Source: Prochlorococcus sp. AG-670-N10
GTDB taxonomy: Bacteria; Cyanobacteriota; Cyanobacteriia; PCC-6307; Cyanobiaceae
NCBI GenBank assembly: GCA_003209065.1
Contig: QCSX01000014.1
Span: 1 to 37,809 of the forward strand
Length of the DNA: 37,809 nt
Direction of reading: 5' to 3'
Shown: positions 12,681 to 28,600 of the stretch, one piece after another
Position numbering within the stretch: the first letter of the stretch is position 1
Layout of the letters: every line of letters begins with the position of its first letter
Made by a program: the position numbers and the translations under genes
The notes under the pieces: model-generated
Database searches by the model: none
What the model was told of the DNA's origin: nothing
The model's input: the letters and a program-made list of their open reading frames with translations, nothing else

Positions 12681-15600
12681 ATGGTTTCATTTAGAAATTA
12701 TTTAAATAGAGATGATAAACCAATTATTATTTTTGATGGTGGGACAGGTACTTCTTTTCAAAATTTAAATTTATCATCACATCATTTTGGTGGGGATGAT
12801 TTAGAGGGTTGTAATGAAAACTTAGTTTTATCCTCTCCTAATATTGTTGAACAAGTACATAACTCATTTCTTGAAGCAGGTTGTCATGTAATTGAAACTA
12901 ATACGTTTGGAGCTTCATCTATTGTTTTAGATGAATATAATATTTCAAACAAAGCTTATGAGATCAATAAAAAAGCGGCTCAGATAGCAAAAAAATGTGC
13001 GAATTTATATTCCTCTATTAATACTCCTAGATTTGTAGCTGGATCAATTGGACCAACGACAAAATTACCAACATTAGGTCATATTAATTTTGATAAGCTG
13101 AAAGATTCATATGAAGAACAGATTAATGGTCTAATAGACGGAGGTATTGACCTTTTATTAATAGAAACATGCCAAGATGTATTACAAATAAAATCAGCAT
13201 TATTTGCTTCTCAAGAAGTAATCAAAAATAAGAATATTGAATTACCAATAATGATATCCATAACTATGGAAACCACAGGAACGATGCTAGTCGGTTCAGA
13301 TATAGCCTCTGCATTAACAATACTAGAACCATACGATATCGATATTTTGGGACTAAATTGTGCAACTGGTCCAGTTCAAATGAAAGAACATATTAAGTAT
13401 TTAGCTGAAAATTCACCCTTTGCAATTAGTTGTATACCTAATGCAGGATTACCTGAGAACATAGGGGGTGTTGCTCATTATAAATTAACTCCATTAGAGT
13501 TGAAAATGCAGTTGATGAACTTTATTTATGATTTTAACGTTCAACTTATTGGAGGGTGTTGTGGAACCACTCCTGAACATATCAAGCATTTATCATCAAT
13601 CATAGATGACATAGTCGATAAAAAAATAAATAATAACCTTTCTACTGTAAAAACAAATTTTATTCCTTCAGCCGCTTCTATATATAATTCAGTTCCATAT
13701 AAACAAGATAATTCAATATTAATTGTTGGAGAGCGTTTAAATGCTAGTGGATCAAAAAAAGTAAGGGAACTACTAAATGAAGATGATTGGGACGGCTTGG
13801 TATCAATTGCTAAGCAACAGCAAAAAGAAAATGCTCACATACTAGATGTCAATGTTGATTATGTAGGAAGAGATGGGGTTAAGGATATGAAAGAAATTAC
13901 CTCAAGATTAGTCACAAATATAAACCTTCCATTAATGATAGATTCAACAGAAGCAGACAAAATGGAAAGCGGATTAAAAACCGTAGGAGGAAAATGCATT
14001 ATAAATTCAACAAACTACGAAGATGGAGATGAAAGATTTAATCAGGTCTTAAAACTTGCATTAGATTATGGTGCTGGAATCGTTATTGGAACTATTGATG
14101 AAGATGGAATGGCAAGAACATCAGATAAAAAATATAGTATTGCAAAGAGAGCATTAATTAAAACTAGATCTAGTGGCCTTGCAGATTATGAGATATTTTT
14201 TGATCCTTTAGCACTGCCAATATCTACAGGAATTGAAGAAGACAGGTTAAATGCAAAAGCAACTATTGAGGCAATATCAAATATAAGAAAAAGCTTCCCA
14301 GATATTCATATTATTTTAGGAATATCTAATATAAGTTTTGGGCTTTCACCATTATCAAGAATTAATCTTAATTCAATATTTCTCGATGAATGTATAAAGG
14401 CAGGATTAGATTCAGCTATTATTGCACCAAATAAAATATTGCCTCTTTCAAAAATATCTGAGGAAACAAAAAAATTATGTTTAGATTTAATATATGACAG
14501 AAGGAAATTTGACAATGAAATATGTATATATGATCCATTAGTTGAACTAACAAAAGTATTCCAAGATTTAACAATCAGTGACTTTAAAAAATCATCTACT
14601 TCAAATAAAAACCTCACCTTAGAAGAAAAACTTAAAAACCATATTGTAGATGGAGAAAAAATAGGTTTAGAAGAACAATTAAATAAAGCGCTTAAAAAAT
14701 ACAAACCACTTGAAATAATTAATACTTATTTATTAGATGGAATGAAAGTAGTCGGAGAACTATTTGGATCCGGCCAAATGCAATTACCTTTTGTATTGCA
14801 ATCAGCGGAAACAATGAAATTTGCTGTTTCAGTGCTAGAACCACATATGGAAACAGTAGATAAAAAAATATCTAACGGAAAATTACTAATAGCAACTGTT
14901 AAAGGAGATGTTCATGATATAGGTAAAAATTTAGTTGATATAATTCTCTCAAATAATGGATTTGATGTAATCAACCTTGGAATTAAGCAGGATGTTTCAG
15001 CGATTATTGATGCACAAAAAAAACACAAAGCAGACTGTATTGCTATGAGTGGTTTACTTGTTAAATCTACAGCATTTATGAAGGATAATTTAGAAGCATT
15101 TAACAATGCTGAAATTAATGTTCCAGTTATTCTTGGAGGTGCCGCATTAACTCCAAAATTTGTGAACGAAGATTGTAGTCAGATATATAAAGGTAAAATT
15201 TTGTATGGGAAAGATGCTTTTACAGATTTACAATTTATGAATGACTATATGGATAGTAAAAAGAAGGGTAATTGGTCTAATGAAAATGGTTTTACTAATA
15301 CTGATGATATTCAAATTAAATTAGCCTCCCCAAGCTCTTCTGCTAAAGATAAAAATTTAAATAAAAATTTTGAAAAAACCAAAAGTATTCAATTAATTGA
15401 AAATTTTAATAGATCTAATTTTGTAGAAGAAGAGGAACCTATAATGGCTCCATTTTTGGGAACTAGAGTTCTTCAAGATTTTGAAATAGACTTTGACAAA
15501 CTAATTTTTTATTTGGATAAAAAAGCATTATTTAGTGGTCAATGGCAAATTAAAAAAAACAAAGGTCAATCAGTAGAAGAATACAATAATTATTTAGATT

Positions 15601-16241
15601 CATATGCAAATCCATTACTTGAAAAATGGATCAATATTATTTTAGATAAAGGCCTAGTTTCACCAAAAGCTGTCTATGGCTACTTCCGTTGCGGGAGGAA
15701 TGATAATAGTATTTACCTCTTTGATCATGTATCAAATAAAAAAATTTCTGAATTTAATTTTCCTCGACAAAAATCGGGAAATAATCTTTGCATTGCTGAT
15801 TTTTACTGTGATCTTAAAAATAATTATCCAGTAGATATTTTTCCAATGCAAGCAGTAACAATGGGGGAAATAGCTAGCGAATATTCTCAAGAATTATTTA
15901 AAGCTGATAAATATAGTGATTATTTAATATTTCATGGTTTAACCGTTCAATTAGCAGAGGCTCTTGCAGAATATGTTCATTCAATAGTAAGAATTGAATG
16001 TGGATTTAAATCATATGAGCCAAACAATAACCGTGAAATATTAGCTCAAAAATATAGAGGAGCTAGATACTCATTTGGTTATCCAGCTTGTCCTAAAGTT
16101 TCTGATTCAAATATACAGTTATCATTATTGGATACAAAAAGGATTAATTTAACAATGGATGAATCAGAGCAATTACATCCTGAACAAAGTACTACTGCAA
16201 TAATTTCACTTCATTCAAAAGCGAAATATTTTAGTGCCTAA
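12681..16241 (+). CDS. metH: Cobalamin-dependent methionine synthase
   Basis: An 1186-residue four-module MetH, transferring a methyl group from methyltetrahydrofolate through cobalamin to homocysteine. Module order: homocysteine-binding barrel with zinc motif [10 protein letters not shown] (near residue 295); pterin barrel with [12 protein letters not shown]12-binding cap and Rossmann domain with DVHDIGKN, whose H745 is the lower cobalt ligand; and the C-terminal reactivation domain that binds AdoMet ([13 protein letters not shown]). All modules are intact. Prochlorococcus is known to rely on B12 for methionine synthesis, consistent with cobN and cobU in the same window. A weak terminator-like hairpin lies just past the stop. 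Confidence 0.97.
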
Positions 16242-18190: not shown

Positions 18191-19204
18191 TTGAGTAATT
18201 CTGAGAATTCAAATACAAAAAGAATTTCAATTGATTTACCAGAAGAGTTAGTTTCTAGGTTTGATCAATTACGAAAAGAATGGGGTTTTAGAGCAAGAGG
18301 TCCTGTAATAGAAAAGTTGCTTACGGAAATTCTTCAAGAAGAAGACTTATTACCTAAAAGTCAACAACAGACAATTGATTACAGCGAAAAGGTGAATATA
18401 AATGAATACTCTAACTTTGATGAAAAGAGTGCTTTAGTCCTTATTAAATCTAATAAGGATGAGAGTACTAGTACAGAATCCGAAGAAAAACTTCTTTTAA
18501 ATAAGAAAGAAGTTATTGAGAAACCTAACTTAAACATCAACCTACCTAATTTTGTTGGAAAAAAGGTTAGAAATCTGAGAAGAAGTATAAATATTGAAAA
18601 AACAAAACAAAAAATTAATGATATTCAAATTAATACAATCAAGGAAAAAGATTTAATAAAATGTCGAATTGAAATTATAAGCCATTGGAAAAACCTATAT
18701 GGATCAATTCCGAATGAACAAGTAATAGAAGCATCTATTGATTGGTTTTGTATAGACATTTGGCCAAATATTGATGGAACCGAGCAGTTACCATTCACTT
18801 GGAGTGCCGCAAATAAATTAATGTCGGATTTATGTCCTTTTTGGATAAAACAAACTCCCTCCTTAGAATTAGTTATTTTAATGATAGGTGTATTAGAAGA
18901 TCCATTTGCAACATCTGATTTATTAAATAGGGTCCCAACATTAGTAAGAAGATTTATAAGTAGGTTTAAAAGGAAAAATAAGGGGAATTCATTTGAAGCA
19001 CTTGATTCAACAATGACTGTTCATGGAGCTCTAAAATTATTAAAGTTATCAACCGCTGCAGGGTCAGCACATACATTAAATAAAATAAGAGAAGCATATA
19101 AAATTAAAGCTTTAGAAACTCATCCAGATTCTGGTGGGTCTACTGATGAGATGAGGAAATTAAATGATGCATATCAATTGCTTAAAAATATGTATAGAAG
19201 ATAG
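18191..19204 (+). CDS. Ribbon-helix-helix plus DnaJ-like C-terminal domain protein
   Basis: A 337-residue protein with an unusual two-end design. Residues about 10-50 read as a CopG-type ribbon-helix-helix DNA-binding domain (RISIDLPEELVSRFDQLRKE, then a GFRARGPVIEKLL helix). A charged linker follows to about 130, then a Trp-rich globular middle (about 155-260). The C-terminus resembles the second half of a J-domain, with H311-P-D313 in ETHPDSGGSTDEMRKLNDAY. HPD is the motif that stimulates Hsp70 ATPase, so a DNA-binding DnaK partner is possible. The start appears to be TTG at 18191; a nearby ATG at 18183 gives only a three-residue peptide. A palindrome cluster begins just after its stop. Confidence 0.75.
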   Translation: MSNSENSNTKRISIDLPEELVSRFDQLRKEWGFRARGPVIEKLLTEILQEEDLLPKSQQQTIDYSEKVNINEYSNFDEKSALVLIKSNKDESTSTESEEKLLLNKKEVIEKPNLNINLPNFVGKKVRNLRRSINIEKTKQKINDIQINTIKEKDLIKCRIEIISHWKNLYGSIPNEQVIEASIDWFCIDIWPNIDGTEQLPFTWSAANKLMSDLCPFWIKQTPSLELVILMIGVLEDPFATSDLLNRVPTLVRRFISRFKRKNKGNSFEALDSTMTVHGALKLLKLSTAAGSAHTLNKIREAYKIKALETHPDSGGSTDEMRKLNDAYQLLKNMYRR

Positions 19205-19620
19205 TGTTAATAATCTTATATGAGACTTACTCTAAGTCTAAATAAAAGTCTTATATAAGACTTAAGAGATGATATTTAAATTAAAAAAATTTCTAAAAAG
19301 TAATTCTTGCTTTTCAGAGTAGTTAAATGTGAATAATGCATAACAAATGATGGTGTATTAACTTTCTTATATAAGACTTAACATAATTCAGTACACAAAC
19401 ACTCCTCAAATAGAAGAGTTGAATAAATTTATATAAAAAGAGTATTACTAGTCTTATATAGGACTTATAAATAGTCTACTAATGAATCTTAAATAAGATA
19501 ATCAATATATAGTCTAATTTTATAATTTATTGTCCTTTGCTTGTCCAGTCTTGAAGTAATGTACTAAAAACATAAATATAACTAGAGTTTCAATTATGTA
19601 GTGCTGCCTTAAAGACAGTA
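19205..19620. other. 416-base gene-free region rich in short palindromes
   Basis: No convincing ORF is found on either strand between the RHH/J gene and the small secreted-protein gene. The region holds repeated palindromes of the CTTATATAAG type (annotated separately), AT-rich filler and a hairpin at its right end. It is long for this compact genome, where most gaps are below 100 bases. Confidence 0.7.
19212..19499. repeat. Cluster of AAGTCTTATATAAGACTT-type palindromes
   Basis: One copy is a perfect 18-base palindrome at 19246-19263 (AAGTCTTATATAAGACTT). Degenerate copies lie at about 19212-19228 (ATCTTATATGAGACTT), 19365-19379 (TCTTATATAAGACTT), 19450-19466 (AGTCTTATATAGGACTT) and 19486-19499 (ATCTTAAATAAGAT). 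Spacing is irregular (about 34, 119, 85 and 36 bases), so this is not a CRISPR array. Copies are close enough in sequence to suggest a common binding site or a small spreading element. Confidence 0.75.
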
Positions 19621-19623
19621 CTA
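19599..19623. terminator. Hairpin at the 3' end of the small secreted-protein gene
   Basis: TAGTGCTG (19599-19606) and CAGTACTA (19616-19623) form an eight-pair stem with one G-T pair and a 9-base loop. The right arm overlaps the reverse-strand stop codon of the 82-aa gene. It may end transcription from that side, but no clear T-run follows. Confidence 0.35.
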
Positions 19624-19869
19624 CCGAGATTGCAAGTTTTGTAATGCAGTATTTTTATTAATACTTGGCACATCGTTTAACCCGTTTGCATCAAACCAAG
19701 GAGCGCTTGCCCAGTCAAAACCTTCTCCGAACGTATTATCTGGAGCTGTTATATACCAATGGCATGATGCGTCTGGAACATCAACTGAACATTTAGACCA
19801 GTCGTCAGACCATTGAGGGACTTGAACCCAAAGAACAGAAGATATTAAAAATGAAATAATATTAATCAT
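19621..19869 (-). CDS. Small exported-looking protein with a cysteine pair
   Basis: An 82-residue protein. The first 16 or so residues (MINIISFLISSVLWVQ) look like a short signal peptide, and the rest is polar and aromatic, rich in Trp and Asp, with two cysteines (C27 and C36) that could form a disulfide after export. I recognise no family. The gene lies between palindromes on both sides and downstream of pheT on the same strand. Its amino-acid make-up (WSDDWSKC, ASCHWYITAPDN, FDWASAPWFDANG) is less AT-driven than its neighbours, which supports real coding and hints at a distinct history. Confidence 0.6.
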   Translation of the reverse strand: MINIISFLISSVLWVQVPQWSDDWSKCSVDVPDASCHWYITAPDNTFGEGFDWASAPWFDANGLNDVPSINKNTALQNLQSR

Positions 19870-19914
19870 GAGTATTATTATATATTATCAATTAAATTAA
19901 TAGGATTATTATTT

Positions 19915-19957
19915 TTCTTATTTAAGAATCTTTCTAAGACTTATATTGGGTCTTAGA
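19915..19957. repeat. Palindromes upstream of the small secreted-protein gene
   Basis: TTCTTATTTAAGAA (19915-19928) is a near-palindrome of the same type as those at 19.2-19.5 kb. It is followed by an inverted repeat with perfect 8-base arms, TCTAAGAC (19933-19940) and GTCTTAGA (19950-19957), around a 9-base loop. They sit in the 106-base gap after pheT. They could be a pheT terminator, an operator for the 82-aa gene, or members of the repeat family. Confidence 0.6.
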
Positions 19958-19975
19958 TAAGAATTAGTATACTAT

Positions 19976-28526: not shown

Positions 28527-28600
28527 GTCTCGGTAGCTCAGCTGGTTAGAGCGGTGGATTCATAGCCCACAGGTCGCGTGTTCAAGTCACGCTCGAGACA
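28527..28600 (+). tRNA. tRNA with CAT anticodon (probably elongator tRNA-Met)
   Basis: A 74-base cloverleaf. The acceptor stem is GTCTCGG with TCGAGAC and discriminator A; the D stem is GCTC/GAGC; the anticodon loop TTCATAG has CAT at 28561-28563; the T stem is GCGTG/CACGC with loop TTCAAGT. The anticodon stem is GTGGA/CCCAC with one A-C mismatch next to the loop. CCA is not encoded. A CAT anticodon can mark elongator Met, initiator Met or lysidine-type Ile2; the intact A-T-containing acceptor pairing rules against an initiator, and Ile2 is not excluded. It marks the left edge of an accessory-looking region. Confidence 0.93.

Follow-up and report, generated by a model that had tools for sequence, protein, structure and literature searches.

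What kind of site is marked by the cluster of short palindromes that lies 3′ of a gene for a ribbon-helix-helix/J-domain protein (RHH/J) in Prochlorococcus sp. AG-670-N10? The cluster is in contig QCSX01000014.1; the whole stretch analysed, 37,809 nt with a GC content of 27%, is called the window here. A first-pass annotation made from the sequence of the window had described the palindromes around a small gene of 82 amino acids (aa), and had offered a cooperative DNA-binding protein, a spreading small element or a processed RNA region as explanations. That interpretation stands in part; it overlooked a 27-bp inverted repeat between the palindrome arrays and the location of the locus near the terminus. 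We consider it probable that the locus is a dif-type chromosome-dimer-resolution site of picocyanobacteria furnished with arrays for an accessory protein, i.e., a complex dif. This reading is the best available because a conserved inverted repeat of the recombinase type is found near the terminus, because arrays bracket it, and because copies with exact spacing occur in viral contigs. The architecture of the locus, its conservation, the single site per non-HL locus, the near-terminus location and the viral copies can be read from the DNA itself (HL and non-HL denote the two sets of loci compared).

The core site

The elements of the locus in the window, none of which is assigned a strand, are as follows.

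19598..19624: candidate dif-type core site, a 27-bp inverted repeat of 10-7-10 design, GTAGTGCTGC cttaaag ACAGTACTAC, with 8/10 arm matches
19209..19265: array element A, palindrome cores at 19214 and 19249 with AGTCT midway; its centre is 33 bp past the RHH/J stop codon
19447..19503: array element B, cores at 19452 and 19487 with AGTCT midway
19911..19967: array element C, cores at 19916 and 19951 with AGACT midway; on the opposite side of the core site from A and B
19362..19379: lone palindrome (core at 19365), unpaired

The right arm of the core shares bases with the stop codon of the 82-aa gene. When the arrays are masked, the best 16-mers that the 19 non-HL loci have in common within 1.5 kb 3′ of RHH/J come from a single inverted repeat, with a mean match of 12.7/16 against 11.3 in three shuffles. 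Its non-HL consensus is GCGTAMCTGY-N7-RCAGKTACGC. A profile of this core, trained, like the array profile below, on the same 19 loci in which sites were then counted, scores 28.9–39.9 bits at 19/19 loci, and 13.5 bits at the best of 80 background windows of 20 kb, a background of 1.6 Mb in all. The centre of the core lies 266–840 bp past the RHH/J stop codon. Inverted repeats with at least 8/10 arm matches occur exactly once per 16-kb locus in 18 of the 19, the remaining locus having 7/10; the background contains 10 of them.

The HL form of the core, of the TAGTACTG type, is present in 58/58 loci examined (57 of the 80 fetched HL loci, the others being too short 3′ of the gene or left out, plus the window), and in 44 of the 58 a 21-nt core is identical to that of the window. 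One arm of the HL core is nearly invariant; the other is variable or decayed. The two arms covary over 26 sequences: 94.2% of cells are paired against 77.6% after shuffling, and 40 cells show double changes against 13.1, values that 0/500 shuffles reach in either case. Arrays flank the core on both sides in 19/19 non-HL loci, by comparison of positions, and in 56/58 HL loci; in G273 the far-side arrays start 3.1 kb from the core. The 27-bp repeat with its 7-bp centre corresponds to the form of a dif site, whose inverted repeat measures about 28 bp and has a centre of 6–8 bp.

The box arrays

The palindromes that drew attention to the locus are where the first-pass annotation had placed them. 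The perfect 18-mer AAGTCTTATATAAGACTT occupies 19246-19263, with variants at 19211 (15/18), 19362 (15/18), 19449 (16/18) and 19948 (14/18), and, as had been stated, nothing else within the window reaches 14/18. The motif GTCTTATATAAGAC with 0–2 mismatches occurs five times in the window against 0.23 expected from 40 dinucleotide shuffles, and in the assembly to which the window belongs (1.45 Mb, 62 contigs, 92% complete) all three matches with at most one mismatch fall inside the cluster. The bare 14-mer behaves otherwise. It is matched in 105/200 genomes of the genus, with similar numbers for its backward-read control, and its counts per genome do not exceed that control (in G000, for example, 3 vs 3). 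The signal therefore lies in clustering and architecture, not in copy number.

The spacing had been called irregular. In fact, the window cores are paired at exactly 35 bp (19214/19249, 19452/19487 and 19916/19951), with AGWCT midway, and the 19365 core is the only one unpaired; it is probably half of a decayed array element. In 81 loci (the window and 80 named relatives, either Prochlorococcus or uncultured Synechococcaceae), 154 of the 186 palindrome-core distances of up to 120 bp are exactly 35 bp, and AGWCT lies exactly midway in 149 distinct 35-bp pairs, each position being conserved at about 95% or more. The HL unit can be written as TCTYATATRAGA-N9-AGWCT-N9-TCTYATATRAGA. A search for this unit as a 47-nt pattern, three mismatches being allowed, gives 2–4 matches in each of 33 HL genomes, at one locus per genome among the matches listed, and the backward control gives none in all 50 genomes searched. 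Exactly three units are present in 56/58 HL loci. Within the HL 3′ region the array columns are only slightly more conserved than the rest, which includes the 82-aa gene (0.89 vs 0.86).

These counts bear on several of the earlier suggestions. A dispersed repeat, the spreading element of the first-pass annotation, does not accord with so few units at one locus. CRISPR had already been dismissed there, and we agree, given 2–4 paired units per genome and no cas gene found by Pfam on six window proteins, the only cas search made. A structured or processed RNA finds no support in palindrome partner positions 4/9, which are C-A in 93/292 and C-G in 5; the core filter used disfavours C-G, yet the C-A mismatches stand. 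At the gathering threshold, Rfam finds only a tRNA in the window.

What do the arrays look like in more distant relatives? In the 16-kb regions of the 19 non-HL genomes, whose GC content ranges from 29 to 70%, a symmetrised profile of the HL unit finds its best matches 3′ of RHH/J in nearly all, and a retrained profile finds 88 units, against 12 of equal score in the background. There are 3–6 units on the 3′ side of RHH/J in 19/19, most within 1.4 kb and some as far as 5.8 kb; 5/19 have one unit upstream. The centre of the first array lies 23–163 bp past the RHH/J stop codon, and 36–48 bp past it in 14/19. Across 72 units, the non-HL unit proves to consist of G[AT]C boxes placed 0, 12, 23 and 32 bp to either side of the centre, with frequencies of 0.96, 0.76, 0.47 and 0.20, respectively, against at most 0.06 elsewhere. 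The array is thus a row of RGWCY boxes, seven at most, that follow one another at about one helical turn (9–12 bp) and are symmetric about AGWCT. Such an arrangement suggests sites for a stacked, cooperative DNA-binding protein, in line with the first explanation of the first-pass annotation.

A sequence-only array model, R1, was built from 54 non-HL units and the three of the window and was searched in 41 genomes, of which only G264 had contributed units. Among the 25 searched family genomes having RHH/J, 22 gave matches at E ≤ 0.01, all within 2 kb of that gene; G303 and G252 gave weak matches at RHH/J, with E up to 0.3. A match in G293 (E 0.12) lies 132 kb from RHH/J, is at chance level and was rejected as an array. 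The arrays form one local cluster per genome and are not spread over a large terminus domain. The first-pass annotation had named as its refuting outcome that the cluster be missing from close relatives with conserved neighbours. The opposite holds in all 19 non-HL RHH/J genomes, the exception being G234, which keeps the gene neighbourhood and has lost RHH/J, arrays and core there; arrays are absent from its whole genome.

Position on the chromosome

Is the locus where a dif site should be? Among 19 single-contig non-HL genomes, RHH/J lies at a median of 0.485 of the chromosome from dnaN, and at 0.45 or more in 16. The latter count becomes 17/23 when G294 (0.495), G303 (0.39), G350 (0.385) and G252 (0.36) are added; the fractions for these four, and for three genomes of other families below, were computed from printed coordinates.

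We fitted the strand-skew switch gene by gene, using third codon positions from spaced samples of 20 kb; G264, G303, G350 and G252 were chosen because they are off-centre. In 5/6 genomes the best switch falls within about 20 kb of the locus. In G264 the locus is at 801 kb and the best switch at 785 kb, the antipode being 130 log-likelihood units (lnL) worse; in G303 the figures are 519 kb, 500 kb and 37 lnL. The locus of G228 (884 kb) touches the switch interval of 884–894 kb, that of G294 (864 kb) lies beside an interval of 844–849 kb, and that of G350 (2592 kb) is near a weak best switch at 2610 kb. By both measures, with G252 contrary, the locus has the location near the terminus and skew switch that is characteristic of dif.

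In the part of PMC10913375 that concerns us, vesicle DNA of Prochlorococcus MED4 is reported to be most enriched at ter, 826–832 kb. The cluster lies at 828.9–829.6 kb in the HL genome G015, which is not established as MED4.

Copies in viral contigs

A search of IMG/VR with the non-HL core pattern yields 81 exact matches. Three control patterns, two with altered inner arm bases (one of these less degenerate than the core pattern) and one with a 6-nt centre, have none. We read 80 of the 81 loci, two of which come from one contig. The viral 9-nt centres are diverse, with 53 distinct among the 80, and one host centre is common to three. An array-like match occurs in 1/80, 6.7 kb from the site. 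At L333 1-934 the core stands near the end of a viral contig that also matches the window's 82-aa protein by tblastn; beyond that match, no other host terminus genes were found in the 80 loci. One of two terminase families is among the nearest genes in up to 32/80, and when a representative of each was searched, its nearest named relatives were cyanophages. The HL-type core pattern gave 10 matches in viral contigs with other extended palindromes, judged unrelated, and no viral sequence matches the HL composite array exactly. Two of the loci, L368 and L397, carry the same core on one viral contig (IMGVR_UViG_3300021963_000225), perhaps as integration ends or as a terminal redundancy.

Phages that borrow the dif site of their host are known in other bacteria. 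We prefer to read the viral copies, whose arms match those of the host core, as another case of such borrowing.

The RHH/J gene and its neighbourhood

The genes that frame the locus in the window are as follows. The names metH and pheT, like rpmG, rpsR, rnb, metG, mnmE and malic enzyme, are readings of the sequences by eye and not the result of a family search.

18191..19204, plus strand: RHH/J gene, 337 aa, with an N-terminal ribbon-helix-helix, a helical middle domain and a C-terminal J domain with an invariant HPD; candidate array reader
19621..19869, minus strand: 82-aa gene within the cluster; HL genome G042 has it at the same position, with 82% identity
19976..22438, minus strand: pheT, synteny marker
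12681..16241, plus strand: metH, a synteny marker found next to the G208 arrays as well

Gene order is largely kept: metH, Ap4A phosphorylase, RHH/J, pheT, rpmG, rpsR, rnb. The 82-aa gene was not found in the 19 non-HL loci. RHH/J is matched in 141/151 genomes of the family, a count that includes the pseudogene of G042, and in 30/34 genera; it has no tblastn match in phage or plasmid collections. Its residues 1–59 match NikR and CopG-type proteins at E 0.019–0.2, with a weak RHH_1 match, so that the ribbon-helix-helix fold is supported by profile and also by fold; the AlphaFold model is limited in confidence (pLDDT 70, pTM 0.39). The middle domain, conserved and helical, has no convincing match among the structures listed. 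HPD is invariant in 26/26 J domains.

It was our first working idea that RHH/J is the sole reader of MatP-like sites. This idea, and with it RHH/J as reader, is weakened because arrays persist without RHH/J. In the complete HL genome G042, RHH/J is a degraded pseudogene (L178 8120-8580) and the three array units and the core are intact. In genus g28, no RHH/J was found and the arrays are kept, as judged by array scores among the matches listed. A search of the open frames of 25 loci (L292-L316) with RHH/J sub-profiles by hmmsearch gave only one J-domain match, in L314. RHH/J is a plausible partner of the arrays, though not an exclusive one.

Small RHH-only frames of 64–84 aa that resemble the N-terminus of RHH/J are present elsewhere in G260, G238, G223 and G300 (L328, L329, L330 and L331). 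Farther along the window, the segment 28990-30950, just past a tRNA-Met gene (28527-28600), is poor in open reading frames, has a GC content of 0.22–0.23 and may represent a hotspot of insertion.

Genus g28 and other families

Of the g28 array loci read, 4/6 contain a perfect repeat of the 10-7-10 form, either GCCACACTGC..GCAGTGTGGC or a variant. Outside the family, R1 matches cluster in G213, G208, G206, G203, G209 and G222. All six clusters contain runs of at least four boxes, of which the background has only four; in a G216 region, four boxes that form a GC-rich run were not taken for an array. In G203, GGTTACCTGC..GCAGGTAACC stands about 1.5 kb from the arrays. The distance from cluster to dnaN is 0.493 of the chromosome in G209, 0.477 in G203 and 0.484 in G222; in G213 and G208, dnaN is on contigs other than those of the arrays. 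The clusters of G208 and G209 share malic enzyme, with metH in G208 and pheT in G209, which suggests one ancestral terminus neighbourhood.

Two loci stand out for the gene that precedes the array. In G208, a 354-aa gene of no clear family (L309 9555-10619) has a box array about 35 bp past its stop codon, as RHH/J does. In G320, of g28, arrays and core (L302 9834-10246) lie directly 3′ of mnmE instead of RHH/J.

How would the locus work?

From this architecture we infer recombinase binding, recombination, the identity of the array reader and a DnaK step, as follows. The 27-bp inverted repeat would be the core at which a tyrosine recombinase of the Xer type converts chromosome dimers to monomers. 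The RGWCY box arrays would serve as accessory sites: a protein would stack along them, with a dimer for each turn of the helix, and so assemble and regulate the synapse. RHH/J is the leading candidate for the stacking protein in picocyanobacteria, and its J domain may recruit DnaK, whereupon the complex would be dismantled. Tyrosine-recombinase family matches are found in 20/20 genomes, 18 of them over the cut-off. Since 7/20 genomes have exactly one such match (frames of 389–407 aa), a one-recombinase system is possible.

It is tempting to go further, in a proposal that we think somewhat less likely than not. A complex dif may be general in cyanobacteria, consisting of an Xer site with a 7-bp spacer whose arrays govern in cis the choice of dimers over monomers, with the terminus-encoded RHH/J bringing DnaK in picocyanobacteria. 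The arrays, and not RHH/J, would then be ancestral to several families, and cyanophages would have repeatedly taken the core beside their terminase genes.

Weighing the alternatives

A number of observations weigh against a dif-type site. At least 7/10 arm matches are kept in only 21/57 HL loci, and the core was scanned against the limited background given above. Against RHH/J as the reader in particular, arrays persist beside an RHH/J pseudogene in G042 and where no RHH/J was found, in g28 and in other families. Among genomes of other families, the core was recognised in G203 and perhaps in G208, and was not seen in the array loci of G209, G206, G213 and G222; the arrays of G206 are 236 kb from dnaN. 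The terminase-side regions of 12 named cyanophages lack the core site. The only tyrosine-recombinase match of the window genome is below the curated cut-off, and xerC is called rare in cyanobacteria in the relevant part of PMC5101192. As to position, 6/23 genomes are off-centre (G232 0.444, G273 0.443, G264 0.33, and G303, G350 and G252 as above), as are G286 and G265 by rounded size, and the terminus position may partly be synteny because gene order is conserved. Likewise, the locus of G252, at 1065 kb, is outside its switch interval of 505–650 kb (12 lnL worse), and in G264, G303, G350 and G294 the locus is 2.6–13 lnL below the best point, 15–20 kb off.

Could the locus instead organise the terminus in the manner of MatP? 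RHH/J would bind the arrays and bridge sister termini with no recombination, and the inverted repeat would be a further binding site or a hairpin. The ribbon-helix-helix fold, the first array at 36–48 bp past the RHH/J stop codon in most non-HL genomes, and the joint loss of RHH/J, arrays and core in G234 all speak for it. We consider it unlikely, as the arrays form one local cluster and do not extend across a macrodomain, the core has a conservation of its own and is found in viral contigs with no arrays next to it, and arrays occur without RHH/J. A replication fork trap like Tus-Ter is very unlikely in our judgement. Arrays that stop forks would account for a skew switch at the locus despite unequal replichores, and in G264 and G303 the switch is indeed near the locus and away from the antipode; nevertheless, polar arrest is not expected of symmetric elements, and G252 does not fit. 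The asymmetry of G303, moreover, may be recent, three genomes of its genus being at about 0.48–0.49 (two by rounded size), so an old skew could persist even with no trap.

The remaining two readings concern the inverted repeat itself. A bidirectional transcription terminator between convergent genes, with the arrays as operators of a local regulon, would suit the convergent intergenic location and the ability of the arms to pair. It would not suit the scarcity of TTTT, present within 9 nt after the stem in only 3/19 core sites, nor the requirement of the viral matches for a 7-nt centre (81 vs 0 at 6), nor viral copies with common arms and dissimilar 9-nt centres (53 distinct among 80); furthermore, the arrays are mostly 3′ of RHH/J and not at its promoter. 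We give this explanation very little credence. We believe it equally improbable that the core has nothing to do with dimer resolution and is instead an attB, a phage attachment site kept in place by recurrent integration of phages. The 81 viral matches, with up to 32/80 beside two terminase families, could be so explained; yet the host copy has a near-terminus position and is flanked by arrays, which the viral loci lack beside the site, and the picture would be no different if phages made use of a host dif. The dif-type site with accessory arrays remains the reading that we prefer.

Relation to known systems and significance

The closest comparison is dif/XerCD, which, in the part of PMC3025954 used here, shares with the present locus a short inverted repeat of about 28 bp, a position near terminus and skew switch, and copies in phages, or in viral contigs in the present case. 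The present site differs from it in its 27 bp with a 7-bp centre, its arm sequence and its bracketing by box arrays. In that paper (Kono 2011), as far as the portion available goes, dif was predicted in 0/5 cyanobacteria; the corresponding portion of a later genome paper (PMC6416890) still reports no dif, and that of PMC3480399 describes the terminus of S. elongatus as not clearly defined by skew. A dif position in MED4 is marked in the available part of PMC10913375, where no sequence accompanies it. A literature search, which covered full texts only in small part, found no description of the core site, the arrays or the RHH/J protein.

Other systems offer partial parallels. The single-recombinase Xer systems XerS/difSL and XerH/difH resemble ours in the 7/20 genomes with a single tyrosine-recombinase match and are unlike it in that accessory arrays are present here; this comparison is one of organisation. 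The plasmid dimer-resolution sites cer and psi, with ArgR and PepA, also set a recombinase core beside accessory protein sites, whereas the present site is chromosomal, has arrays on both sides, repeated RGWCY boxes and an RHH/J gene. MatP/matS likewise combines the gene of an RHH protein with palindromic sites located in the region of the terminus; here there is one local cluster, and RHH/J has in addition a J domain at its C-terminus and a middle domain that is unmatched. In MetJ- and Arc-type operators, short symmetric boxes recur about every helical turn, as they do here, where the arrays are 3′ of the gene, with up to seven boxes at 9–12 bp spacing. Tus/Ter sites are polar and non-palindromic, unlike the symmetric units described here.

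A dif candidate at the level of sequence in an abundant marine phototroph makes chromosome termination and dimer resolution testable in cyanobacteria. Terminus-rich vesicle DNA and the use of dif by phages likewise become testable in these organisms.
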